Assembly: GCF_016031625.1 (NCBI RefSeq)
Contig: NZ_JACCHP010000001.1
Span: forward strand, 248,001-312,000
Direction: 5' to 3'
DNA: 64,000 bases
Source of the DNA: Bradyrhizobium agreste
Lineage (GTDB): Bacteria; Pseudomonadota; Alphaproteobacteria; Rhizobiales; Xanthobacteraceae
The notes below the pieces were generated by a model, which was not told the DNA's origin, searched no databases, and saw nothing but the letters and a program-made list of their open reading frames with translations. Within the stretch, counting starts at the first letter, position 1. Every line of letters begins with the position of its first letter. Of this stretch, positions 14,521-64,000 are shown in pieces. The position numbers were made by a program, and so were the translations under genes.

Positions 14521-14670
14521 CGAACTGACCTCCCTTGGCTCATGGCCGAGCTCCACGCGCCCTGCTCTTTCCCGCGGGGCGCTGTAACCGGAAAACTATC
14601 CGTTATTTTTCCGTTTCGAGCGGGCTCTTCGGCTCAACTTTGGGTAAAATCGCGTAACGAAGTGCAGCAA

Positions 14671-17426: not shown

Positions 17427-18495
17427 TGCGCTTCTCCTTCACGCCCGGGCCGAAATGACCTACACGTTCCCGCTCGCCCAGCACGAGGCTGATCAAGCCG
17501 AGGGGGCGGAACATAATGACGAGCAACAGCAAAACGCCGAGAATGATCGGCCAGATATCGCGATAATTGTCGGAGAGCCAGAAGCTGAGGCCCTCAACAA
17601 TCGCGGTGCCGATGACCGCACCGATCAATGTCCCGGAGCCGCCGAACAAGACGTAGAGCACGACCTGGGTCGACATGACCACGCCCAGCATGTTCGTCCA
17701 GACGAAGCCCTCGTGAAACGCATAGAGGCTGCCGGCAGTACCTGCGATCGCGCCGCTGATTGCGAATATGATCGCCTTTAAATGTTGCACTTTGTACCCG
17801 AAGAAGGCGATGCGCTGTTCGTTCTCTCGCAATCCCGCCAGTGCCAGACCGAACTGCGACCGCAGCAAAAAGCGCGACAGAAGGTAGATCAGAACCAGAA
17901 TGGCGAGAACTAGGTAGTAAAATCCTGGTCCCTCGCTCATTTCGTGCGAGCCGATTGTCATCGGTGGGATCGAAGGGATACCGTTCTGGCCGCCAAGGTA
18001 ATGAGAACCCCGAGCCAGCCGGTCGGCTGCGTAAGCTCCAGTCATAGTACCAAGCGAAACGAAGACCACACTCGAGGGGTGACGGCCAAGCAGCAGGAAG
18101 CCTGCCAGCAACAATGCCGCGATAAAGCCTATCAGGCTTCCGGCCGGAAGAACGGCAAAGATCGATCCGACTCCGAAGTCGCGTGAAAGCAGCGCTACAG
18201 CGTAGCCGGCCATGCCGAAGAACAGCGACTGGCCCAAGCTCAATATCCCGGCATAGCCCCACACCAGGTCGAACGACAACGCGAAGAGGCACAGGATGAG
18301 CACTCGCGTTGCATAGACGGTGATGTAATCCCGCAGGACGAGCGGTGCGATCGAAGCGGCAATCAGCAATGCCAATTCGAGAATTGGAAGCACCTTCGTT
18401 CGCGCTGCGAAGGCAGATGCCATGACGGGCGAACGAGCAGCTCCAATCACCTGTGGCGGGGGCCGTATGCCAGTGCCGGTCGATGACATCAGCAT
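17413..18495 (-). CDS. ABC transporter permease, LivM/UrtC type
   Basis: A 360-residue inner-membrane permease with about nine helices. The FALSFDLVWGYAGILSLGQSLFFG block and the EAA-like loop GLRENEQRIAFFGYKVQHLKAIIFAISG are diagnostic of LivM/UrtC. Its start overlaps the stop of the binding-protein gene upstream (TGC TGA read through an ATG), implying coupled translation. A second in-frame ATG two codons later is equally possible. The C-terminal tail is charged and cytoplasmic. Confidence 0.85.
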   Translation of the reverse strand: MLMSSTGTGIRPPPQVIGAARSPVMASAFAARTKVLPILELALLIAASIAPLVLRDYITVYATRVLILCLFALSFDLVWGYAGILSLGQSLFFGMAGYAVALLSRDFGVGSIFAVLPAGSLIGFIAALLLAGFLLLGRHPSSVVFVSLGTMTGAYAADRLARGSHYLGGQNGIPSIPPMTIGSHEMSEGPGFYYLVLAILVLIYLLSRFLLRSQFGLALAGLRENEQRIAFFGYKVQHLKAIIFAISGAIAGTAGSLYAFHEGFVWTNMLGVVMSTQVVLYVLFGGSGTLIGAVIGTAIVEGLSFWLSDNYRDIWPIILGVLLLLVIMFRPLGLISLVLGERERVGHFGPGVKEKRNAAP

Positions 18496-19709
18496 TCCTT
18501 CGGATCGACCAGGCCGGCACTACGCGCGACAATCTCGTACTGGCCGCCCTTCGCCACTCCAATGTACATGTTCATCCTGCAGTGGCGCTTGCCGGGCGCC
18601 ATTTCGGCTGGCCCGCCCGGCCCTTCCGCAATCTTTGCGTGGTCGAGGGCGGCGGCTACCGCGTCGCGGTCAATTGTACCGGCCTCCTTCACCGCAGCTT
18701 CCCACAGCTTCAATCCTCGATAGGTGCCGGTTGCGGCGCTGCCTGCCGAGAACCGGAATTTGGCAGGGAACTGCTTGTCGTAAGCCGACTGAATCCTGGC
18801 GCTCACCGGATCCTCCGCCGCGAGCACCTTGTAGTAGTCGAGGCTGCTCGCGAGCCCTTCAATCTCCTGGGCCTGGTTCATTTCCAGGAAATTTTCGTCG
18901 TAATAGACGCACCCCAGCCGCCCGCCGTTTTTGGAGAAGCCGGCTTGATAGAGCTGTTTGAAGAATGGGCTAACGCCGGGGGGGACAATGGCGTTGAACA
19001 CCACGTCGACTTTGTTGGATATGATGCGGCTAACTGTAGAGGAAAAGTCGATCTGGTCGAGCGGGTAGTATTCTTCAAAGACGACTTCGCCACCGCTGCT
19101 CTCGATTACCTTGCGTGCATAGGCATTGATTGTTTGCGGCCAAACATAGTTGGAGCCAGGCAACGCGAAGCGTTTGCCACCGTTTTTGATCAACCAGGGA
19201 ATGAACTGATCACAATTCTGTGCCGGTACCGGCCCGGTGCAGAACAGATAGGGCGTGCACTCTTTACCTTCGTAACCTTCCGGATAGATATAGAGCGTTT
19301 TGCCGCGAGAGATAATGACGTCCTTAATCGCATTGCGCATCGAGCTCGAGATACCGCCGATCACCAAGTCGACCTTGTCTCGCTGGATCAGCTTGCGCAC
19401 ATTTCCCACGGCGACGGATTCGTCGGAGGCAGTATCCTCAATTAGGAGTTCGATCGGGCGTCCCAATAGGCCGCCGGAGTCGTTGATCTCCTTGACCAGC
19501 ATGCGAGCGACATTGGCGTCGGTGTTGCCGGCAAAGCCGAGTGACCCGGTAAGATCGGTCGCAATGCCAAGCCTGATCGGGCCTTCCGCGGCATTTGCCC
19601 AATCCGGGCGAATTATCCAGCTGCCCGGACCCGCCGCGATGGCGGCGGAGGCGAAGGCGAAATTGCCGAGAAAGCGTCGGCGGCTCAGTTGACGGCTGGC
19701 GTTGATCAT
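18489..19709 (-). CDS. Urea/amide-type ABC transporter substrate-binding protein (paralogue B)
   Basis: A 406-residue binding protein with the Tat signal LSRRRFLGNFAFASAAIAAG and the same mature motifs as the protein at 13300-14520. Differences are scattered, about 12%, with no indels. The reading frame extends open to 20753, but that extension is antisense or out of frame with the permease gene. The ATG at 19707-19709 has AGAGGGG upstream and overlaps the permease stop as ATGA. Gene order permease-binding protein-permease-ATPase-ATPase makes this the primary receptor of the system. Paralogue A may widen specificity. Confidence 0.88.
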   Translation of the reverse strand: MINASRQLSRRRFLGNFAFASAAIAAGPGSWIIRPDWANAAEGPIRLGIATDLTGSLGFAGNTDANVARMLVKEINDSGGLLGRPIELLIEDTASDESVAVGNVRKLIQRDKVDLVIGGISSSMRNAIKDVIISRGKTLYIYPEGYEGKECTPYLFCTGPVPAQNCDQFIPWLIKNGGKRFALPGSNYVWPQTINAYARKVIESSGGEVVFEEYYPLDQIDFSSTVSRIISNKVDVVFNAIVPPGVSPFFKQLYQAGFSKNGGRLGCVYYDENFLEMNQAQEIEGLASSLDYYKVLAAEDPVSARIQSAYDKQFPAKFRFSAGSAATGTYRGLKLWEAAVKEAGTIDRDAVAAALDHAKIAEGPGGPAEMAPGKRHCRMNMYIGVAKGGQYEIVARSAGLVDPKEC

Positions 19710-20569
19710 CGGTTGACCCCTCTTCCCGAAACAAGGCCTTGCGGCCGGAGCTTGATGAAAATGATGGCGAGCACGAACACCAGAACGTCGGCGATAACCG
19801 GTGACATCAGCCAAGGCAGCCAGGCACTGAACGTGCCGATGACGCTGGCGCCAGCGACTGGGCCGGCGAAGGACCCGACGCCACCGACCATCACGGCAAC
19901 GAAACCCTGGATAAGAAAGCGGATGCCGAGATCGGCAAATAATGAAAAGACTGGCACGATCAGCGCGCCGGCGAGACCTGCGAGTGCCGCACCAAATGCA
20001 AAGGTGATGCTGTAGATCAGGCCCGTGGAGATGCCCGAGGCACGCGCCAGCTGTGGGTTCTCCAACGAGGCGCGGACTCGCAGGCCGAACGAGGTGTAGG
20101 CGAGCAGTGCATGGCTCGCGGCCATGACCAGCAAAGTGATGATGACGATGACGCCGCGCCAGGTGGCGAAATGCAGATTTCCGATCGTGATAGAGCCACT
20201 GATTGGCTCCGGCACCGAGAGATACAGTCCCCCGGTCAGGCCGCGCACGGCTTCGCGAATGATCAGCCCCAGCGCGTAGGTGCCAAGCATGGCGACGATT
20301 GGAGCGGCATAGAATCGGCGCACCACGAGTTTTTCCAGGACGAAACCAAGCGTGCCGACCGCGACGGGCGCGGCAAGCATGCCGAGCGGGACCGGCAAAC
20401 CGACGCTGTGCACGAGATAAGTGACGTAAGCGCCGAGCAGGACGAACTCGCCTTGGGCGAAGTTGAAGATGCCCATCATGCTGGCAATGATCCCAAGACC
20501 GAGCACGACCAGCACAACAATGGCACCAAAGCTCAAAATCTCGAAGGTCGCGATAAGTAGCGTATCCAT
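19706..20569 (-). CDS. ABC transporter permease, LivH/UrtB type
   Basis: A 287-residue membrane protein with about eight helices. The opening LSFGAIVVLVVLGLGIIASM, NFAQGEFVLLGAYVTYLV and the loop FGLRVRASLENPQLARASGIST are classical LivH/UrtB signatures. It is the first gene of the minus-strand importer operon. The 230 bases upstream are free of genes and carry a TGAGTA-N4-TGGGTA repeat at 20800-20815, related to two other sites in this window. Confidence 0.88.
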   Translation of the reverse strand: MDTLLIATFEILSFGAIVVLVVLGLGIIASMMGIFNFAQGEFVLLGAYVTYLVHSVGLPVPLGMLAAPVAVGTLGFVLEKLVVRRFYAAPIVAMLGTYALGLIIREAVRGLTGGLYLSVPEPISGSITIGNLHFATWRGVIVIITLLVMAASHALLAYTSFGLRVRASLENPQLARASGISTGLIYSITFAFGAALAGLAGALIVPVFSLFADLGIRFLIQGFVAVMVGGVGSFAGPVAGASVIGTFSAWLPWLMSPVIADVLVFVLAIIFIKLRPQGLVSGRGVNR

Positions 20570-20799
20570 GCTGCTGCGTCACATTCCTTGGGCTTGCGAG
20601 CAAATCATCTTCACGCCGAGCGCTCGAAGGCGTGAGCTGCACGTTGGAATGCGAAGGGCTGCTGGCACGAGAGCGCTCCTGGAAGGTCATCCCGGCAATG
20701 GGAGTTGCAGGCGATGGCGGACTTCTTGAGCGGCCCGCCTCTCGGCGCTTCATTCACGACATGCGGCGCGAGATTGCCTAGAAAAAACGTAGGGATATC

Positions 20800-20815
20800 T
20801 GAGTAATCTTGGGTA
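20800..20815. promoter_or_regulatory. Direct repeat TGAGTA-N4-TGGGTA (weak copy of shared module)
   Basis: TGAGTAATCTTGGGTA has half-sites 10 bp apart, as at 30471-30486 and 60835-60850. Forty-six bases before it the sequence is TCACGA, a 4/6 match to the TCTAGA found at that offset in the other two copies. It lies about 230 bases before the LivH-type gene. Confidence 0.45.
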
Positions 20816-26514: not shown

Positions 26515-28290
26515 TTACGCTGTGGATGCTGCCGCCGTCTGTCCCTGATGGGTGGATTGTACGATGCTGTTCACCGCTCGGTAGGCGAACACGATGGCTG
26601 GCCCGATCGTAATGCCTGCCCCAGGGTAGATCCCACGCATCGGTGAGGTCATGTCGTTGCCGCAGGCATAAAGACCTGCGATCGGCACGCCATTTCCATT
26701 TAGGACCCTACCGCCAGGATCCGTTGACAGGCCGGTCGCAGTTCCAAGGGTCGCCGGGACAATCGGAAGCGCAATGAATGGCCCGTTTTTGATAGCTCCA
26801 AGGTTCGGGTTTTTCTTTCCGACCGCGGGATCTCCCAGGGTTCGGTTGAAAGCCGATTCACCGCGTTTGAAAAGCGGATCGCGTCCTTCAGCTGCGTGGG
26901 CGTTGTGTTCTTCAACGGTCTTTTGGAGCTCTTGCGGGTCGAGGTCCAATTCCGCCGCAAGCTCCGCAATCGTCCGGCCAATTTCGATGTAGCCCAACCA
27001 AGCATACTTCTTGATACTCAATGTCCATGGCCAGGGGAGCAAGTGTCCCATCCCCCTGAGGCGGACGAATTCCTTGTCGCAGATGAAATAAAACCGCTTG
27101 TCCGCCGGATAACCGTTGTTGAACATGGCAAGGCAGATATCATGATATGAATTGGATTCATTGACGAAGCGCTTGGCATTTGGCCCTACGGCGATGACAC
27201 CTGGACGGCCACGATCGAGCCAGCCGTACGGGACCACTTGCGAGGCGCGGCCGTTCCTGAGGATCGACACGGGCGTCCAGAATCCACTCGATGCAACGTC
27301 ATTATCGATCGCAGCTCCGAGCTTACTTGCGAGCGCAATGCCGTCTCCAGTGACATCGCTGTGGGCCAGCGTATCATTGTGCTGGTGGGCTCGGCTGAGC
27401 TGGGCTCGCAATTGAGCGTTCCGCGCAAAGCCACCAGTTGCCAGGATCACCCCGTGAGAGGCGCGGATGCGGAGATCGGCGCCATCACGCTTGACGATTG
27501 CGCCAGTGACTCTCCCGCCCTCGCTCGTCAGATCAACCGCTGGGCAGCTTGGCCAGATTTCAATGCCATACCTGCGAAGGCTTACCAATAACCGCGCGAT
27601 CAGAGCATTGCCGCCACTGAGTTCAGTGCCCCGCCTGTAGCGCAGCCGGTCGCGTGCGTAGCGGCTGACCCGGCGCAGGACGTGCTTGAGCGAGGCAGCC
27701 GACTGGAATGGATTGAGGAAGCTTCTGACCTCGCCGGACGAAATCATCATGCCGCCGAGCACGACGCGAATCGGATCACCTATCAGGTCGAAATCCTTGC
27801 CTAGAAGCCGTCCGTCGTAAGGTGCGGGGCTCAGCGCCCGGCCCTTGTCGATCCCTCCGATTTGGCTGGAATGATAATCCGGAGCGGAGGCCAGTGTGAA
27901 CTTGACTTCACTCCCATTCTCCAAGCTGGCGAGCGCCGTTGGGCCGTCTTCTAGATAGGCGTCTACGAACTCGGGCCGATAGTAGTTGCCAAGTTCGTGT
28001 TGCAGATAGATCTTCGCATTCGCAATCGAATCATTGATTTTCGCCGCTCGGGCCTGCATTGAGTATGGAATCCAGATCATGCCGTTCGACAGGGCAGTCG
28101 TGCCACCGAGCCGGTCAGATTTCTCGCACACCGTCACGCGAAGTCCGGCCTTTGCCGCATAGAGCGCTGCGGACAGTCCAGCCGCGCCGCTGCCGATCAC
28201 GAGCACGTCCGTCTCGCAATCGTGCGTTGGCTTGCTCACTTTGGAGAAGGAAGGGGAATTTGGTTTCAATTTGGTGATTGGGCTATTCAT
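26515..28290 (-). CDS. FAD-dependent oxidoreductase of the fumarate reductase/ketosteroid dehydrogenase type
   Basis: A 591-residue flavoprotein (FAD_binding_2). The dinucleotide motif DVLVIGSGAAGLSAALYAAKAG lies at about 29-50, followed by VTVCEKSDRLGGTTALSNGM, the Gly-Gly-Thr/Ser motif contacting FAD pyrophosphate. The C-terminal NGVPIAGLYACGNDMTSPMRGIYPGAGITIG is the second FAD contact, as in 3-ketosteroid dehydrogenases and fumarate reductases. There is no signal peptide or heme site. It is the third gene of an operon with the Tm-1-like and PEP-hydrolase-like genes, overlapping the latter by eight bases. It probably desaturates or reduces a carbonyl compound handled by that pair; the substrate is unknown. 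Confidence 0.8.
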   Translation of the reverse strand: MNSPITKLKPNSPSFSKVSKPTHDCETDVLVIGSGAAGLSAALYAAKAGLRVTVCEKSDRLGGTTALSNGMIWIPYSMQARAAKINDSIANAKIYLQHELGNYYRPEFVDAYLEDGPTALASLENGSEVKFTLASAPDYHSSQIGGIDKGRALSPAPYDGRLLGKDFDLIGDPIRVVLGGMMISSGEVRSFLNPFQSAASLKHVLRRVSRYARDRLRYRRGTELSGGNALIARLLVSLRRYGIEIWPSCPAVDLTSEGGRVTGAIVKRDGADLRIRASHGVILATGGFARNAQLRAQLSRAHQHNDTLAHSDVTGDGIALASKLGAAIDNDVASSGFWTPVSILRNGRASQVVPYGWLDRGRPGVIAVGPNAKRFVNESNSYHDICLAMFNNGYPADKRFYFICDKEFVRLRGMGHLLPWPWTLSIKKYAWLGYIEIGRTIAELAAELDLDPQELQKTVEEHNAHAAEGRDPLFKRGESAFNRTLGDPAVGKKNPNLGAIKNGPFIALPIVPATLGTATGLSTDPGGRVLNGNGVPIAGLYACGNDMTSPMRGIYPGAGITIGPAIVFAYRAVNSIVQSTHQGQTAAASTA

Positions 28291-29152
28291 TCGTGCCTCG
28301 GTGCAGATTCTGCAGTAAATGCTGACGCTTTCGCGGGAGCGGAACGGCTTTGAATTCTTCGGCTGCAGCCTTCACCGCGCGCTCAATCGGGATCCGTTCG
28401 ATGGAGGAGGCGCCAACGAAACCGACACATCCGGTCGATCGGTAGACTTCCGAGGTATCCTGAGGCTCAGCGATTGCCCCGCCATGGCAGAGAAGGATCA
28501 CATCCGGACGGACGGCCTGAACCGCAGCATTGATCTCGTTGATGCGCCTGATGACCTCTTCGATCGACTGTCCCTCCTCATGACCAACAAGTCCGCCGCG
28601 CGTTGCGCCGACATGTGGGACGATGCAGTCGGCTCCCGCGGTTGCCATCGCTTTGGCATCCTGCGGGCTTGCGACATAGGCGAGCGAGAAGATCTTCTTC
28701 TTGCGGGCCGCCGCGACCATCTCGACCTCACGCTCAAAGCCGAGCCCGACGCGGCCTCGACGATCGCGCCATTTCTCACCCATCGTTGAAATGGTCGGGT
28801 AATTGATCACGCCGGAGAATCCGGCAGCCCAGAACTTGTCCAAGAGATCATCGAGGTCGAGCCGGACGGGATCCCAGGCCTCAACACCGCCTATAACAGG
28901 AACGGAGGAGACAACGTTGCGGATCTCCGCCGCGAGTTCGAGCGTGCGCGCATTGGAATCGCCGATCCGGCTCGTCGGCAGCCCCATCAACCGCGATAGC
29001 CCGGTGCTGTAGACCACAAGCATGTCGGCGCCGCCGAGAGCTGCGCATTTTGCGACGAGGCCGCAACTGCTCGCCGCGGCGAGCACCGCCCTTCCAGCCG
29101 CAACTTGAGCTGTGATCTTTGCGAGTATTTCGGCCCGATCAAACATCCGCAC
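28283..29152 (-). CDS. Phosphoenolpyruvate hydrolase-family TIM-barrel protein
   Basis: A 289-residue TIM barrel of the PEP_hydrolase family (PF09370-like), related to PEP mutase/isocitrate lyase-type barrels. Diagnostic blocks are VLAAASSCGLVAKCAALGGADMLVVYSTG, PVIGGVEAWDP, GFSGVINYPTISTMGEKWR, ADCIVPHVGATRGGLVGHE, VILLCHGGAIAEPQDT and VGFVGASSIERIP. This family forms the C-terminal half of the tomato Tm-1 protein; here it is a separate gene overlapping the Tm-1-like N-terminal homologue by 14 bases. Enzymatic activity is poorly defined in the literature I know. A related domain is fused to an AAA+ regulator at 61473-63332. Confidence 0.85.
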   Translation of the reverse strand: MRMFDRAEILAKITAQVAAGRAVLAAASSCGLVAKCAALGGADMLVVYSTGLSRLMGLPTSRIGDSNARTLELAAEIRNVVSSVPVIGGVEAWDPVRLDLDDLLDKFWAAGFSGVINYPTISTMGEKWRDRRGRVGLGFEREVEMVAAARKKKIFSLAYVASPQDAKAMATAGADCIVPHVGATRGGLVGHEEGQSIEEVIRRINEINAAVQAVRPDVILLCHGGAIAEPQDTSEVYRSTGCVGFVGASSIERIPIERAVKAAAEEFKAVPLPRKRQHLLQNLHRGTNE

Positions 29153-30389
29153 GGGATGAACCTCCTGGTGTCAATTGTTCGACGATCCACGATGCGGCTG
29201 CCTCCGCAAATTCCGGATCATTGATGTGACAGTCCAACTCGCGGGCGCTGATCGAGCGCGGCAGGTGTCGCCTGACCGCGTCGAACCAGGCTCTATCGGC
29301 TTCAGGATTTCGAAAGATGCCGCCGTCCCGGTCATAGTCAGACACCCCCTTGGCCGGCCACAAAACGAGGGCGGGCGCCTTTGCTTGCGAAAGGCGCTCG
29401 GCTGTAAGCCTGCCTATGCGCTCGTTCTCCGAGACGGTCGTGCGCATGAGCGTCGTGAAGGGAGTATGCGAATAGAATTGGCGCCCCGTGAACTCGGCAG
29501 GCACGCTCGAGGCAGGGCCAAAATTCACCATATCGACGGCCCCCGGGGCTATGAGCTGCGGAATCAAGCGGTGAGAAGCTGCCTTGAGCCGATCCGGACC
29601 TGCACTGGCGGTGCCGCCCACAATCTCGTCAGCGAGTTCGGTTGTGGTCAGATCGAGCACCGCATCGAACTCACCGGCGGACACGAGTTGCTCCATCTTG
29701 CGCCCACCGGCGCCGTTGGCCGGAAAGACAATCGCGTCGATGCCTGCTTCCGCCAGCCGATCGACACAGCGATTTGCCGCCGGCGTCGTGACTCCAAAGG
29801 CGGTTATCGCGACTGTCTTCCTCTCCCGCCGCTCTCGAGCAGGCACATAGCGCATCGCCGCAATGGCCCGCCCCGCATTGCAGAGAACGCGTTCGGTGAA
29901 CGCGTTGATCCCGAAAAGATCGACCAGGGTCGGATAGAGGATGATGTCGTTGTGGAGGGCCAGTTCGGCCAGGAGGGCTGGCCTCGCGCTGCTCACCAGC
30001 AACTTCGGGAAGCCATACGGCAAATCCGAAACAACTTCACCGAAGACTGCGCTGCCCTTGCCGCCCGCTATTCCGACGACAGCGTCGATCGCACCTGATC
30101 TCAGGAGCTCCTTGACTTCTTCACGCGCGCTTGCAGCTATTTGCCGTAAGAGCTCGGCGGGTGCAGCCACCCGTGCATCGTTGCCGTCCGGCTCGCTTCT
30201 GCCCCTCCTGTTTGATGTGCCTACATCTATCGTAAGAGTCTCGCGGCCCCACTGTTCGATCACTCGTGCGAGATAAGCGGTCTCGTGGCCCTTTGTGTCC
30301 AGGGTTGCGACGATCGCGACCTTGCCGGCAAGATCGGACGGGTGACCATCCCGGACCGACCTCTGGTCGTCCGCGCAATGGTGAGACAC
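29139..30389 (-). CDS. Tm-1-like (UPF0261) ATP-binding protein
   Basis: About 416 residues of the UPF0261/Tm-1-like family. The opening KVAIVATLDTKGHETAYLARVI is diagnostic, followed by SNRRGRSEPDGND, VVGIAGGKGSAVFGEVVSDLPYGFPKLLVSS, KTVAITAFGVTTPAANRC and VDMVNFGPASSVPAEFTGR. The GTG at 30389 is preferred over the ATG at 30407 because AGGAGGA lies six bases before it. In tomato the homologous N-terminal domain of Tm-1 binds the viral replication protein. In bacteria the family sits next to PEP-hydrolase-type barrels, as here. The leader contains TCTAGA and a TGGGTA direct repeat also found before 60857. It is the first gene of a three-gene operon. Confidence 0.85.
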   Translation of the reverse strand: MSHHCADDQRSVRDGHPSDLAGKVAIVATLDTKGHETAYLARVIEQWGRETLTIDVGTSNRRGRSEPDGNDARVAAPAELLRQIAASAREEVKELLRSGAIDAVVGIAGGKGSAVFGEVVSDLPYGFPKLLVSSARPALLAELALHNDIILYPTLVDLFGINAFTERVLCNAGRAIAAMRYVPARERRERKTVAITAFGVTTPAANRCVDRLAEAGIDAIVFPANGAGGRKMEQLVSAGEFDAVLDLTTTELADEIVGGTASAGPDRLKAASHRLIPQLIAPGAVDMVNFGPASSVPAEFTGRQFYSHTPFTTLMRTTVSENERIGRLTAERLSQAKAPALVLWPAKGVSDYDRDGGIFRNPEADRAWFDAVRRHLPRSISARELDCHINDPEFAEAAASWIVEQLTPGGSSRADV

Positions 30390-30424
30390 GATGTTCCTCC
30401 TGGACATTTCTGGACACTTGGAGG

Positions 30425-30486
30425 TCTAGATCGGAGTAAAATGGCTCATAAGCCCGGATACGAGCGCGACTGGGTAAAGTTGGGTA
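30425..30486. promoter_or_regulatory. Shared regulatory module upstream of the Tm-1-like operon
   Basis: TCTAGA at 30425-30430 is followed after exactly 40 bases by TGGGTAAAGTTGGGTA (30471-30486), two TGGGTA half-sites 10 bp apart. The same arrangement, with the same 40-base gap, occurs at 60789-60850. It lies 36-97 bases before the GTG start of the Tm-1-like gene. Confidence 0.6.
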
Positions 30487-30550: not shown

Positions 30551-31542
30551 ATGACCTTCAAGGCCGTTGCAGAAAAATTCCTGGAAGTTTCCGGTGCTGA
30601 CGGAAGGTCAGCGCAACCCCGTCTACGTTGCAGGCCACGAGCGCCGGGCGCGCAAGTACCTCATCCCCTTCTTCGGCAAGAAGGGCCTTTTAGAAATCAC
30701 GGGCGGTCGCGTGAACGAGTACCGCCTGAGCCGCGTCGAGCAGTCCAAGGAACGATGGCGCGACGATGGATCAGGAGATCGTGTGCCTTCGGCAGATCCT
30801 GAAAACGGCCCTACGGCATCAATGGCTCAACGCACTTCCTGATCTTTCAGAGCCTTATCGCAAAAACGGCATGATTTCGCATCGTGCATGGTTCTCGCGC
30901 GACGAGTACCGCCGGCTCTACGAGGCGAGCGGGCGGAGGGCCCGAAAGCCCAAGAGCAGCAGATGGCGCTGGTGGGGCGAGCAGTTGCACGACCTCATCG
31001 TCTTCATGAGCAATACCGGCCTGCGGCCGGATGAGGCCAGGCGCCTCCAATACTGCGATGTAACGAAAGCCTTCGATGAAAGCACCCAGGAAACCATCCT
31101 TGAAATCGAGGTGCGCGGAAAGCGTGGCTACGGTCCTTGCAAAAGCACGCAGAACGTGGTGCCCGTATTTGAGCGTTTGAAGAAGCGCAACAAACCCAAG
31201 CCCGATGATTTTATTTTCCCCAAGTACCACCATGAAATGTTCAACCGCATCCTGGAGGAAGAAGGCCTCAAGCTTGACCGGGAAGGACGGCCCCGCACGC
31301 TCTACAGTCTGCGGCACACCTACATCTGTTTCCGGCTCACGGAGGGCGCCGACATCAACATGCTGGCTAAGAACTGCCGGACCAGCGTTGAGATGATCGA
31401 GAAATATTACGCAGCCCACCTCAAGGACGTGCTGGACGCCAGCGCCATCAACGTCCGGAACAAGAAGCCGCCGAAGAAGGAAGTGGCGGAAATCCGCCAA
31501 GGTGAGCTGGAGACCATGCGCCGTACTTGGCGCATTGGCTGA
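30551..31542 (+). pseudogene. Tyrosine recombinase (phage-type integrase), disrupted in its N-terminal half
   Basis: The catalytic half is open as 30766-31542 (258 codons). It contains the box I arginine in TGLRPDEARRL, the beta-strand lysine region EIEVRGKRG, box II LYSLRHTYICFRL and the nucleophile tyrosine in MIEKYYAAH. The N-terminal arm-binding/core-binding half is split. MTFKAVAEKFLE starts at 30551, then a frame change near 30590 leads to LTEGQRNPVYVAGHERRARK and YLIPFFGKKGLLEITGGRVN. A second break near 30760, with loss of several codons, precedes MDQEIVCLRQILKTALRHQW. The gene is probably inactive. It marks mobile-element DNA beside the Tm-1 operon, but I see no attachment repeat next to it. 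Confidence 0.75.
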
Positions 31543-60555: not shown

Positions 60556-60788
60556 AGCGGATCCGTAGGGCGCAGATAGCTCGCCCGAAATTTTCATACC
60601 CGAGACGCTTCACGGACCCTCTTTCACCGCGAGCGGAGCTCGCTCAGTACGCTGCAGCAAATCGCATCCGGCACTCAGGACAGGCGCGGAGAGCCCAATT
60701 AAGCAGCCAGCAGGAGACGGCGCCGACGACCATCCCTTCCCAGCCGAACCTGGCTCCTGCGCCAAAGAAAGCAGGACGAACGTCGTGG

Positions 60789-60850
60789 TCTAGACCTGCA
60801 TGAAGCGGCGTGTAAGATCGGCTGAAGCATCAATTGGGTAGGGTTGGGTA
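60789..60850. promoter_or_regulatory. Shared regulatory module upstream of the half-barrel gene
   Basis: TCTAGA (60789-60794), 40 bases, then TGGGTAGGGTTGGGTA (60835-60850). This is the same sequence logic and identical spacing as at 30425-30486 before the Tm-1-like operon. It sits 7-68 bases before the GTG start at 60857. Confidence 0.6.
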
Positions 60851-60856
60851 GAAACC

Positions 60857-61468
60857 GTGAGAGCCAATGTCTTAGGTCGCCTTGCCGCAAGTCTCTCCGC
60901 GTCTCGCGGTGATCAGATGACGATCTATGCGCCGTCACTGCGGACCCTTCCACCGAACGCCATGCTGGTCATGGCCACGCTTCCCGTCATCGACTGGAAC
61001 GACTGTCTCCTGCGGGACTTGCAAGCGGGGCCCAAAGTGCCCCTTTCCTGCTATGCGGCGATCGTCATGATCGACCCGTTTGCATGCTGGGAAGATCTTG
61101 GTGATTTGTTGGAAGCTGCAAGGATGACCGGAGTGACGAACTTTCCGCCTGCCTCCATGATCGAACGGACACCGGCAGGAGTGCCGCTCGATCGCGGTCA
61201 GGAGCTCGAGCTTCGCCGTATGGAGTGGTTTGCAAGGCGAGGGTTCAAAGTCCTGTTTATCGCGGCAGACGAGGCAAGGATGACAGCAGCCGAGCAACGG
61301 CTAGGTTCACAGCTGGATGGGTCCGTCTATCTGCGACCCGAGGCGCTTGAGCTGCCGATTGGATCGGACATCAGCCTCGTAAGCCTTGGCTCTCATGGCT
61401 CGTCATCGGTACCGAAGTTCTCCCTGGAACATGCCGCCACGGCCAAGCAGCCGCTCCGACGGGCATGA
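60857..61468 (+). CDS. Half-size PEP-hydrolase-like TIM-barrel protein
   Basis: A 203-residue protein from GTG 60857 (ATG 60917 is an alternative). The middle GVTNFPPASMIERTPAGVPL, then ELELRRMEWFARRGFKVLFIAADEARMTAAEQRLG, matches the same stretch of the larger regulator ([42 protein letters not shown]). It is thus a divergent relative of the PEP-hydrolase barrel covering about half its strands. The first third (YAPSLRTLPPNAMLVMATLPV) corresponds to the first strands. It lacks the His/Glu motifs of the full enzyme and is probably not catalytic. It converges on the regulator gene with four bases between stops, and its leader has the shared TGGGTA module. Confidence 0.55.
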   Translation: MRANVLGRLAASLSASRGDQMTIYAPSLRTLPPNAMLVMATLPVIDWNDCLLRDLQAGPKVPLSCYAAIVMIDPFACWEDLGDLLEAARMTGVTNFPPASMIERTPAGVPLDRGQELELRRMEWFARRGFKVLFIAADEARMTAAEQRLGSQLDGSVYLRPEALELPIGSDISLVSLGSHGSSSVPKFSLEHAATAKQPLRRA

Positions 61469-61472
61469 GGCC

Positions 61473-63332
61473 TTATTCGAGGATCCGCAGTTTCTTGATT
61501 TTGTTGTAGAGGGTTTTGCGCGAAAGCCCGAGAGAGCGAGCAGTCTTGCCGCGGTGAAGCCGATTTCTCTTCAGGCCCTCGATAATCCAGTCTCGCTCGG
61601 ACAGCGAGGCCGCGGGCCGTGCGCCTGAAGGTGGCCCCAACAACGGCTTTAGCACCTCACCGGTGATGTGACTTGATGGCAGCGTCACGAGCTGGTTCAC
61701 GACCTGCCGCAACTCGCGCAAATTGCCTGGCCAATCGTGGCCGGCGAGCGCAAGGAATGCAGAGTTTTCTATCGTGAGCGTCTGGGCGCTAGAATCTCCT
61801 TTGGCTTCGACGGTGAAGTGTTGAACGAGTTGCGGCAGATCTTCAAGCCTGTCGGGTAGCGAAGGTAATTGGACATCCAGCCCGGCAAAAAGGTCGAGAA
61901 GCCGCGCGCACAGAACCGTTTCAAGGCCAGCGCCTCGGGCCACGGTCGCGGTCGCAATGATCCGGGCATTGGAACGCATGACAGTTACCCCGTACAGAGG
62001 GGTAAATCCGCCTGTCTCAAGGTAATCGGCAAGGCGCTCCTGTCCATCGCGCGAAAGTTGGTCGACATGCAATAGCACGACGGCACCGTCACTCGACGCC
62101 TCCAGGAGTGACAATTGACGTTTGCCGCTCTCAAGACGCTCGGCGCCGAACAACGGGCCAAGTATATCCATTGCCGGACCGGGACGGCAATGAAACAGCG
62201 TCGCCTTGGCGTGCCTGCGGTCGCTAAACGCGTGGACCAGGGATGCTATTCTACGCTTGCCGGAGCCAGCCTCCCCCCAGATGAGGACCGGGCGGGGGGT
62301 GGCCGCAACGCGTTTGGTGATCTCGAGGATGCGCTTCATTGCCGAGGACTGCGCGATCACGCCGTGCCTGAAACCACTCAACTGCAGCTGCCGTTCGAGT
62401 AGATCCACCTTCTCGCGCAACAGGTGGATGGTCTTGAAGCCCGACGTCACCTCGAGGACCGACATCTCCAGAGGCACGCGGTCCAGCGAAGACCCTCCGA
62501 TGAATCCCTGGATTCCGGTCTCGCGACAGATGTCCAGGAGTTCATCCGGCTTTGTGATCGGGCCCCCACCAAGCAGGCAGATGGTGCTCTTGTTGACGGA
62601 TTGAGCAACGCGCGCAACGGCATTCGTACGGGCTGCAAGTTCAGACAGGCTGATCGATGGATCGGACTCGCTTTCAACCCCGCGGTTTAGATTGAAGTTG
62701 ATGCAAATGGCCTCGGCGCCCGCTTCGACCATTCGACGCGCCTCGGATTGACTGCGCGTATAGGCAATCGTCATCAGGCCGCGTTTTGCAGCTTTCACGA
62801 GGAACTCGATTTCCCGGGAGTAACCGAGACCACACTTCTCGAGCAATGACCTGCGCTCATCGTCGATGTGTATGACCGATGGGAAGTTGGTCACACCGGC
62901 AAATCCCCATTTGATGATCCGATCGAGCCAACGATCAAGATCGAGCTCGGGGTCGAAGGTACAGGCGCCGAAGAAGACCGGCAATTTCGTGCTGGGCAGG
63001 ATTTCGGTCCGTCCGAAGCTTGCCACGAATTCGTTACTGTTGCGGATTGGGAGGATCGAGGCAGGTGAGGCCCCACCCATGGCTCGAAAACGGCCCGCAT
63101 TGAGCGCGAGCACAAAATCGGCCCCCGCCCGCTCGGCGGCCCTGGCGGTCATGCCCGACCCGATCCCCGCACCAAGGACAAACGAGCGGGAATTGCGGAA
63201 GAACTGCCTGATACCGGCTCCCTTCACCTCAGCCGTCCGCCTGTCGATCCTGAGCCGCGCATCATCGCACGGCTCTACGTGAAGACTAGCTCCAACTCGC
63301 CGGTGCGCGCAACCGCCGTACCGCCTTTCCAT
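61473..63332 (-). CDS. PEP-hydrolase-type TIM barrel fused to a degenerate sigma-54-activator AAA+ domain and Fis HTH
   Basis: A 619-residue fusion. Residues about 40-300 are a PEP-hydrolase-like TIM barrel ([79 protein letters not shown]). A coiled linker (about 303-318) leads to a AAA+ domain: Walker [10 protein letters not shown] (353-361), a Walker B region VVLLHVDQL in which the usual Glu is Gln425, and WPGNLREL (about 534-541). The GAFTGA loop that contacts sigma-54 is missing. A Fis-type HTH ([20 protein letters not shown]) ends the protein. Loss of GAFTGA and of the Walker B Glu suggests a repressor or non-hydrolysing regulator. The start may instead be GTG 63227, as the gene overlaps the upstream ATPase gene by 47 bases. 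Confidence 0.8.
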
Positions 63333-64000
63333 TGCTCATGAACAAGTGGCAATCGGCTGGAGCGGCGGTGAGGGTGAGCTTGGAGGCGCCTTTGGGCCAA
63401 CCGGATTGTGGCGCCCTGGCGACGAGAGCTTCGTTTCCGGCATTACCGTAGATGTACGTGACGCTGCCGAGATGCTCGACGAAATCGACCCCAAGTTCAA
63501 TCGAGATCTCCTGCTGCCCGCGCATTGACGAGGAGAAGTCGTCCGGGCGAATTCCAACAGTGACCGGCTTGCCAACCAGCATCTGGTCCGGCTGAACCGG
63601 AACGGAGATCGTGGGCCCGGCGTTCAACCGGACGTCCATGCCATGTTCATGAGCTGCCTCGACCTTGCCGCCCAGGAAGTTCATCTTGGGCGAGCCGATG
63701 AATCCTGCCACAAAGCGCGAAGCGGGACTGTGATACAGATCGTGCGGGCTGCCGACCTGTTCGATGTTGCCGTCCTTGAGCACGACGATCTTGTCAGCCA
63801 TGGTCATCGCCTCGACCTGGTCATGCGTCACATAGATCATGGTATTTCCGAGCTGCTTGTGGAGCTTGGCGATCTGAACCCGCATTTGCACGCGCAACTC
63901 GGTGTCCAGGTTGGACAGGGGCTCATCGAACAGGAACACTTTTGGTTCTCGCATGATGGCGCGTCCGATTGCGACGCGCTGGCGTTGCCCGCCTGAAAGC
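63286..64000 (-). CDS. ABC transporter ATP-binding protein, MalK/UgpC type (5' end outside window)
   Basis: The gene continues beyond the window; the visible part covers signature [16 protein letters not shown], Walker [14 protein letters not shown], the switch [19 protein letters not shown] and the C-terminal TOBE/regulatory domain ([24 protein letters not shown]). This is the CUT1 sugar/glycerol-3-phosphate branch (MalK/UgpC). The regulator gene follows with overlapping ends on the same strand, so the two may be co-transcribed. Its permeases and binding protein are not in the window. Confidence 0.88.

Follow-up and report, generated by a model that had tools for sequence, protein, structure and literature searches.

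Regulators with a Fis-type helix-turn-helix (HTH) usually bind palindromes, so that head-to-tail half-sites are unusual in this group. AAA+/Fis proteins that lack GAFTGA, TyrR for example, are capable of both repression and activation. In the available text of one account, the NtrC proteins of Rhodobacter capsulatus and Caulobacter and VpsR of Vibrio cholerae are reported as bEBPs without GAFTGA that act at sigma70 promoters (PMC10274813). For TyrR, the accessible part of another account gives GAFTGA as missing in the Escherichia coli protein and present in the Azospirillum protein, and the TyrR box as a palindrome, TGTAACG-N4-CTTTACA (PMC6375630).

The window analysed here, meaning the whole stretch of 64,000 nucleotides from a Bradyrhizobium genome, encodes at 61473..63332 on the minus strand a candidate regulator that, by Pfam and alignment, consists of a PEP_hydrolase-like TIM barrel (residues 42-302), a degenerate AAA+ domain without GAFTGA and a Fis-type HTH. 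Like the NtrC proteins of R. capsulatus and Caulobacter and VpsR, it is an AAA+/Fis-type bEBP that lacks GAFTGA, and sigma70 elements are predicted at its locus from position and conservation. Unlike these proteins, which have a receiver domain, it carries a PEP_hydrolase-like TIM barrel as its sensor; its predicted operator is a head-to-tail TGGGTA doublet, and its family also has members with GAFTGA and sigma54 promoters. With TyrR it shares the succession of an N-terminal sensing region, an AAA+ domain and an HTH, but the operator is a direct repeat instead of a palindromic box and the sensor belongs to another family. The sensor barrel is of the type of PF09370 and of the solved protein Mll9387 (2p10), but is here fused to a DNA-binding regulator. 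The Tm-1-like and PEP_hydrolase proteins of an operon in the same window are kin of two domains of a plant Tm-1-like protein, as far as the available text goes (PMC5028733); unlike the regulator, PEP_hydrolase enzymes and tomato Tm-1 are enzyme-type or plant resistance proteins. That paper concerns the origin of plant Tm-1-like genes, and the terms sigma, AAA, Fis and transcription are absent from it.

We consider it likely that the doublet is the operator of this PEP_hydrolase-AAA+-Fis regulator, which would assist sigma70 polymerase where GAFTGA is absent and sigma54 polymerase where it is present, so that the family would have undergone a switch of sigma factor. An earlier note on this DNA had proposed an undescribed regulon, and this description still applies: no paper on the regulon was found under gene names, domain names or the motif, in a search that mostly covered journals outside subscription.

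The TGGGTA doublet in the window and its genome

A whole-genome pattern search found three exact copies of TGGGTA-N4-TGGGTA in the 7.88-Mb genome (C1:278471, 308835 and 318332), all on the plus strand of one contig and spanning less than 40 kb, whereas the reversed-pattern control gave no match in the same 7.88 Mb. Two of the copies lie in the window. Site B, TGGGTAAAGTTGGGTA (30471..30486, plus strand), is the predicted operator of the Tm-1 operon, which is itself on the minus strand, and site C, TGGGTAGGGTTGGGTA (60835..60850, plus strand), is a predicted operator 6 bases before the GTG of the half-barrel gene. The half-sites start at 30471 and 30481 and at 60835 and 60845, and a TCTAGA starts at 30425 and at 60789. 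At both sites TCTAGA and doublet are 46 bp apart, start to start, and the half-sites 10 bp apart, exactly as the earlier note had described. Its statement that the remaining sequence differs fits the 60-base flanks, which agree at 17 and 22 positions, but not so well the 40 bases between TCTAGA and the doublet, where 18 bases are identical, including a minus-strand CTTA element that is conserved in relatives; altogether 38 of the 62 bases of the module agree.

Two sites were not part of that description. Site D, the third exact doublet (C1:318332, plus strand), lies 6.3 kb beyond the end of the window, before a sugar-ABC operon. Site A, TGAGTAATCTTGGGTA (20800..20815, plus strand), has one mismatch and is located upstream of a minus-strand gene for a 754-aa protein of the periplasmic-binding type; its position is kept in G027, G058, G021, G005, G088 and G059, and the site is an exact TGGGTA doublet in G021, G005 and G072. 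A weak doublet at window position 14641 (C1:262641), TGGGTAAAATCGCGTA, passes only if a unit may begin with C; the five doublets counted for G000 include it, but it was not taken as a target.

The distance from site B to site C varies among Bradyrhizobium genomes from 526 bp (G021) to 30.4 kb in the genome under study, and the region between them (30487-60788), which separates the Tm-1 operon from the half-barrel gene, has repeatedly received insertions. It contains a weak phage-integrase match at 30766-31542 (PF00589, below cut-off). That site B might be an accident inside a degraded integrase gene there was considered and dropped, as the site is conserved in 11 genomes, this one counted.

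Genes behind the doublet

The operon behind site B starts with a Tm-1-like (UPF0261) gene (29139..30407), followed by a gene for a PEP_hydrolase family enzyme (28283..29152) and, as third gene, one for an FAD-dependent oxidoreductase (26515..28290), all on the minus strand and assigned by Pfam. The pMLa counterpart of the PEP_hydrolase (L205:5854-6708) is the solved Mll9387 (2p10), with 285 of 286 chain residues and an E-value of 2.1e-189. The half-barrel gene behind site C (60857..61468, plus strand, 203 aa) is an open frame with no Pfam match and a weak blastp match to PEP_hydrolase (E 0.014). Its counterparts beside Tm-1 are annotated as phosphoenolpyruvate hydrolase family protein in NGR234 and MAFF303099 and as hypothetical protein in others; in NGR234 the doublet lies 19 bases from the annotated half-barrel start. 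An intact doublet has also survived at the broken Tm-1 or half-barrel copies of G034 and G059 and at the half-barrel pieces of G058 (L215, L216, L217).

Behind site A, domain matches identify the 754-aa gene as Peripla_BP_6-type (18489..20753, minus strand), followed by permease and ATPase genes. The site-D operon, also on the minus strand, encodes a sugar-binding protein, two permeases, a PfkB kinase, an SDR, a HAD hydrolase and a MalK-like ATPase, and then the regulator; the annotations of B. guangxiense, Phyllobacterium and Bradyrhizobium sp. 172 show the genes in this order too. The last transport gene of the operon, a MalK/UgpC-like ATPase with OB and TOBE domains by domain match, appears in the window at 63286..63954 (minus strand), which is probably the C-terminal part of a gene running past the window. 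The earlier note had placed the module before the Tm-1/PEP-hydrolase operon and the half-barrel gene. This holds in relatives, but the predicted regulon is wider, since sites A and D and sugar-ABC operons belong to it as well. That the doublet marks a regulon of sugar uptake and breakdown in soil and root-nodule bacteria is a well-supported prediction.

The same contig carries nifH (C1:428039-428857), about 117 kb from the regulator, which suggests that the region may be a symbiosis island.

Co-occurrence of doublet and regulator

The exact doublet was searched for in 89 Bradyrhizobium genomes, the one under study included. Full-length homologues of the regulator with at least 80% identity were found in 19 of the 89 (21 loci), and every one of these 19 genomes contains the exact doublet, in one to seven copies. 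Among the 70 genomes without the regulator, five (G008, G018, G023, G025 and G037) have a single copy each, none of them near its genome's listed PEP_hydrolase match. The reversed-pattern control matches 2 of the 19 genomes with the regulator and 18 of the 70 without; in view of these figures, the five regulator-free genomes with a doublet are regarded as background. These five genomes and the reversed matches are also what could be cited for chance, that is, for unrelated TGGGTA doublets with an accidental TCTAGA offset. Such an explanation has a negligible probability: there are three clustered copies against no reversed match in the genome under study, and the co-occurrence within the genus and the conservation of the site refute it, in line with the earlier judgement that chance was very unlikely.

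The Bradyrhizobium doublets are situated within about 45 kb of the regulator, with the exception of five distal ones. In G005, a second Tm-1/PEPh/FAD operon with open frames lies about 87 kb from the regulator, has the doublet in its promoter and has no adjoining regulator, and therefore argues for action in trans. The half-barrel gene of this second operon is split in two frames.

The pairing of doublet and regulator is clean within Bradyrhizobium and, by the exact pattern, weaker outside. The exact doublet occurs in 5 of the 60 non-Bradyrhizobium genomes searched (G093, G111, G118, G124 and G134), of which G111 alone has the regulator, and it is absent from G103, G114 and G132, where the regulator is present. 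Under a relaxed criterion (at most one mismatch, with C or T accepted as the first base of each unit), the doublet is found in 53 of the 54 regulator loci examined in Alphaproteobacteria, with a median of two per locus, and is kept down to 30.5-34% regulator identity; both G036 loci, L202 and the remaining plasmid matches among the homologues lie outside these 54. The sole exception is G149 (L198), a full-length homologue with no doublet within its 20-kb stretch. Loci with a relaxed doublet include those of Sinorhizobium fredii NGR234 (pNGR234a), Mesorhizobium japonicum MAFF 303099 (pMLa), S. garamanticum, R. gallicum, Shinella, Phyllobacterium, Azospirillum, Bosea and Qingshengfaniella. Among the regulator homologues on plasmids, Bradyrhizobium accounts for 16 of the 36 records, which are also the 16 closest and include B. 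guangzhouense NZ_CP030054.1.

A comparison with other regulators gives the same picture. The 35 regulator loci that remain when the 19 Bradyrhizobium genome loci are excluded have 56 relaxed matches in 0.74 Mb, distributed over 34 loci, versus 9 matches in 1.26 Mb, in 9 of 78 loci, for control loci of other Fis-type AAA+ regulators. These controls derive from a scan of genome contigs that returned at least 80 loci, of which L106 and L107 carry the fused sensor and the other 78 served as controls. In addition, no relaxed doublet occurs at two Tm-1/PEP-hydrolase operons that lack the regulator, L105 of G001 and L200 of the genome under study.

The doublet lies between divergent half-barrel and Tm-1 genes in NGR234, MAFF 303099, S. 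garamanticum, R. gallicum and, with one mismatch, Mesorhizobium AR07. In Phyllobacterium a doublet with one mismatch overlaps the start annotated for the gene that occupies the half-barrel position. The doublet also precedes sugar-ABC genes in NGR234, S. garamanticum, Phyllobacterium and Bradyrhizobium sp. 172. A profile of 39 sites, out of 40 chosen (one ran off the locus end), shows a direct repeat whose TGGGTA columns are conserved partly by construction, as the sites were picked from pattern matches, together with an AA signal at -21/-20 that was not selected for. No conserved inverted partner of the half-site is present in the columns from -25 to +44 of this profile. Three tandem units with a 10-bp pitch were observed at L243:12167, L244:12427 and L245:12215, the array of G758 reading TACTCA-N4-TACCCA-N4-TACCCA, which suggests that the protein may bind as a head-to-tail oligomer. 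At L106:11560, a third TGGGTA follows two bases after the doublet.

Sites B and C seem to have arisen from one divergent promoter by splitting or duplication, because G042 has a single such site between its Tm-1 and half-barrel genes. Descent from that promoter could also be the whole explanation, with the doublet kept by linkage alone; the single doublet of G042, the common spacing and the partial identity of B and C would all fit. This is very improbable, given that the doublet, in sites picked by pattern, is near-invariant across families while the flanks have diverged, and that it also stands before sugar-ABC genes.

The candidate regulator

The domain assignment of the 61473-63332 protein is based on Pfam matches to PEP_hydrolase (PF09370, E 1.8e-86), Sigma54_activat (PF00158, E 8.3e-17), an AAA lid and HTH_8 (PF02954, E 3e-8), so that the bEBP domain set, a Sigma54_activat AAA+ domain plus a Fis-type HTH, is present. 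The sensor matches the solved Mll9387 (2p10) with an E-value of 1.2e-37. The GAFTGA loop, which contacts sigma54, is missing, and the HTH is kept. The acidic pair of Walker B is lost in the Bradyrhizobium regulators, and in one clade of six homologues (G489, G252, G176, G525, G226 and G482) Walker A is lost too.

The HTH core SRKTLYNK is nearly invariant among the regulator homologues, with departures in Mesorhizobium B2-7-2 (TRKTLYNK), Phyllobacterium (SRKTLFNK), G672 (SRKTLYNR) and G149 (STRTLYNK). Since control loci without the doublet share this core, which was itself one of the scan patterns, SRKTLYNK alone does not set the site. The departure in G149, the locus with no doublet, is a single case and could reflect a change of operator.

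The records examined give the homologues no annotation beyond 'phosphoenolpyruvate hydrolase family' or 'sigma-54-dependent Fis family' protein. Other annotated regulators occur at some loci, namely GntR (Terrarubrum, S. garamanticum, Qingshengfaniella), LysR (B. guangxiense, R. gallicum), MarR (Azospirillum) and MucR (NGR234). In the 12 annotated loci, the TIM-barrel/AAA+/Fis protein is the sole annotated regulator common to all. It is by far the best candidate regulator, as the earlier note had proposed, and its association with the doublet (19 of 19 against 5 of 70 genomes, and 53 of 54 loci) supports that choice. Judged from these sequence comparisons, the doublet is very probably the landing site of this TIM-barrel-sensor regulator.

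A predicted sigma70-type promoter

Genome-wide, TCTAGA-N38..42-TGGGTA is confined to the two reported places, and the third exact doublet, D, has no TCTAGA at that distance; the search for a TCTAGA 46 bp upstream that the earlier note had suggested thus recovers B and C but neither A nor D. On the minus strand, sites B and C consist of TACCCA-N4-TACCCA, 18 bases, CTTATG or CTTACA, 17 bases and CTAGAC. At site B these would be the -35 element of the Tm-1 promoter (CTTATG, 30447..30452, minus strand), 18 bases past the doublet, and its -10 element (CTAGAC, 30424..30429, minus strand), 17 bases further and overlapping TCTAGA. At site C the putative -35 and -10 elements of a leftward promoter are CTTACA (60811..60816, minus strand) and CTAGAC (60788..60793, minus strand), the latter again overlapping TCTAGA. 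The common form CTTAnn-N17-CTAGAC resembles CTTGAC-N17-CTATAT, the sigma70 consensus used for S. meliloti in the available text of its source (PMC2873474).

The conservation of these elements depends on the class of site. Of 14 Bradyrhizobium Tm-1/half-barrel rows, 12 have CTTA at offset 18 and 10 have TCTAGA at offset 39-40, the rest reading TCTAAGA (three) or TTTAGA (one). TCTAGA is found in none of the 11 rows of other Bradyrhizobium sites and is absent at A and D. Among the 11 site-B rows of a larger set of close relatives, 9 have it, as do 10 of the 11 site-C rows. The reading of TCTAGA as a second operator was rejected on this distribution; in the module of the earlier note, TCTAGA is not part of the operator and sits at the -10 position of the predicted promoter.

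Furthermore, at an offset of exactly 19 bases past the doublet, a TT is found in 15 of the 32 rows from outside Bradyrhizobium (where the mean over offsets is 2.6) and in 13 of the 25 Bradyrhizobium rows (mean 1.9). None of 5000 single-base shuffles of the flanks matched either maximum at any offset, a figure that does not translate into a probability as the rows are kin, those of Bradyrhizobium closely so. The remaining 29 of 57 rows, which include sites A and D, have no TT at this offset. The set of rows is free of the near-copies Sgar Tm1, Rgal Tm1, AR07 Tm1, Sgar SBP and G111b and of G132; it contains G661 without its near-copies G639 and G612, and the four GAFTGA-bearing loci other than G132 lie outside it.

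Taken together, TCTAGA probably represents the -10 region of a sigma70-type promoter directed leftwards, the doublet keeping a constant distance and orientation upstream of the -35 element. Because TCTAGA is restricted to one class of sites and TT and CTTA stand at fixed offsets, the constant 46 bp are best explained as the spacing between an upstream operator and a predicted -10 box.

GAFTGA loop and promoter class

GAFTGA status was checked in all 54 loci. The loop is kept in 5 of the 41 homologues on the tree (G132, G748, G758, G689 and G772), and a perfect TGGCAC-N5-TTGC lies no more than 220 bp from a doublet at each of these five loci but at none of the 49 others, three of which (G059, Mesorhizobium B2-7-2 and Qingshengfaniella) show a match with one mismatch. 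The five GAFTGA-bearing homologues fall on one side of a branch with support 100/99 in the tree of 41; because they form one clade, the sigma contrast amounts to about one evolutionary event. An order-wide search (E<=1e-95) returned 16 of 397 sampled genomes, with four new GAFTGA-bearing members, and class-wide (3 of 385 genomes) and phylum-wide (3 of 349) samples at E<=1e-90 gave no further one. The sigma54 promoter runs against the TGGGTA strand in G132 and along it in the other four, and three tandem units are present in G758, G689 and G772 and, less cleanly, in G748. The variable orientation and the tandem units fit an enhancer.

In the 144-kb stretch of the genome under study, no TGGCAC-N5-TTGC with at most one mismatch lies within 220 bp of any doublet. 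Sigma54 control of the window's own promoters was rejected, as both GAFTGA and the -24/-12 boxes are missing, and the window's regulator is probably not a sigma54 activator. Three loci (G661, G639 and G612) carry TGGCACGGATCTTCC 20 bases past the doublet, Azospirillum has TGGCAC there and others have TT(G); the sigma54 box of G132 is 52 bases from the doublet and thus farther away than TGGCACGGATCTTCC. In G661, G639 and G612 the sequence looks as if a -12 box had decayed, although descent from a sigma54 box is a guess; by extension, the -35 box may have grown out of a -24 box. The available text on Bradyrhizobium DOA9 reports that a permease gene named y4oQ is down in rpoN mutants (PMC13207237), which could reflect sigma54 control if that gene belonged to this locus.

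The correlation between loop and promoter bears on the identity of the binding protein. Some other DNA-binding protein travelling with the locus could occupy the doublet, the TIM-barrel/AAA+/Fis protein being merely linked. In its favour, regulators of the GntR, LysR, MarR or MucR type are annotated at some loci, and a direct repeat is unusual for a Fis-type HTH. The TyrR box, given as a palindrome in the accessible part of its source, points in the same direction (PMC6375630). We hold this to be improbable, as only the TIM-barrel/AAA+/Fis regulator is common to all 12 annotated loci and the promoter class near the doublet tracks the GAFTGA state of this very protein.

A second alternative accepts the operator, so that its odds overlap with those of the preferred reading, and differs in the effect: bound to the doublet, the regulator would repress, keeping the half-barrel gene and the divergent promoter shut off as long as no ligand is bound. 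The close position of the doublet to the half-barrel gene, 6 bases from the GTG at site C and 19 bases from the annotated start in NGR234, would suit a repressor, and TyrR-type proteins without GAFTGA repress as well as activate. An activator fits better with a doublet that keeps one distance and one orientation upstream of the -35-like elements of many Tm-1 and SBP promoters, and the GAFTGA-bearing relatives with sigma54 promoters are expected to activate there. Repression is therefore regarded as unlikely, though less so than a different binding protein.

Proposed mechanism and its meaning

In the preferred reading, that of an activator acting from the doublet, the regulator encoded at 61473-63332, whose association with the site is observed, would bind TTGGGTAAnATTGGGTAA as two head-to-tail units one helical turn apart. 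Its enzyme-like TIM barrel, a paralogue of the operon's PEP_hydrolase, would be the probable ligand sensor. In the GAFTGA-less majority, the genome under study included, the regulator would probably sit just upstream of sigma70-type promoters with fixed spacing and orientation. The housekeeping polymerase would receive its help at the Tm-1/PEP-hydrolase operon, at the sugar-ABC operon and at two more sites. In the GAFTGA clade, the same predicted operator is found near perfect sigma54 promoter sequences. The family would thus have switched its sigma factor with the DNA site unchanged, in a direction that we infer. A regulator family with such a switch at a constant operator is likely. The fuller account, in which a TIM-barrel enzyme became a sensor and activation moved between sigma54 (GAFTGA, flexible site) and sigma70 (degenerate AAA+, fixed site) under a constant operator, is in our estimate evenly poised between right and wrong.

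For the regulator family, including the member on the symbiotic plasmid of NGR234, the finding names a probable binding site, lists targets and proposes a mechanism that can be tested. To our knowledge, the role of the Tm-1-like/PEP-hydrolase genes in bacteria is unsettled, and these genes gain a predicted sugar-uptake regulon as context. In addition, the family forms a natural series for setting the loss of the sigma54-contacting loop against promoter change at one operator, making the origin of sigma70-type bEBPs directly testable.
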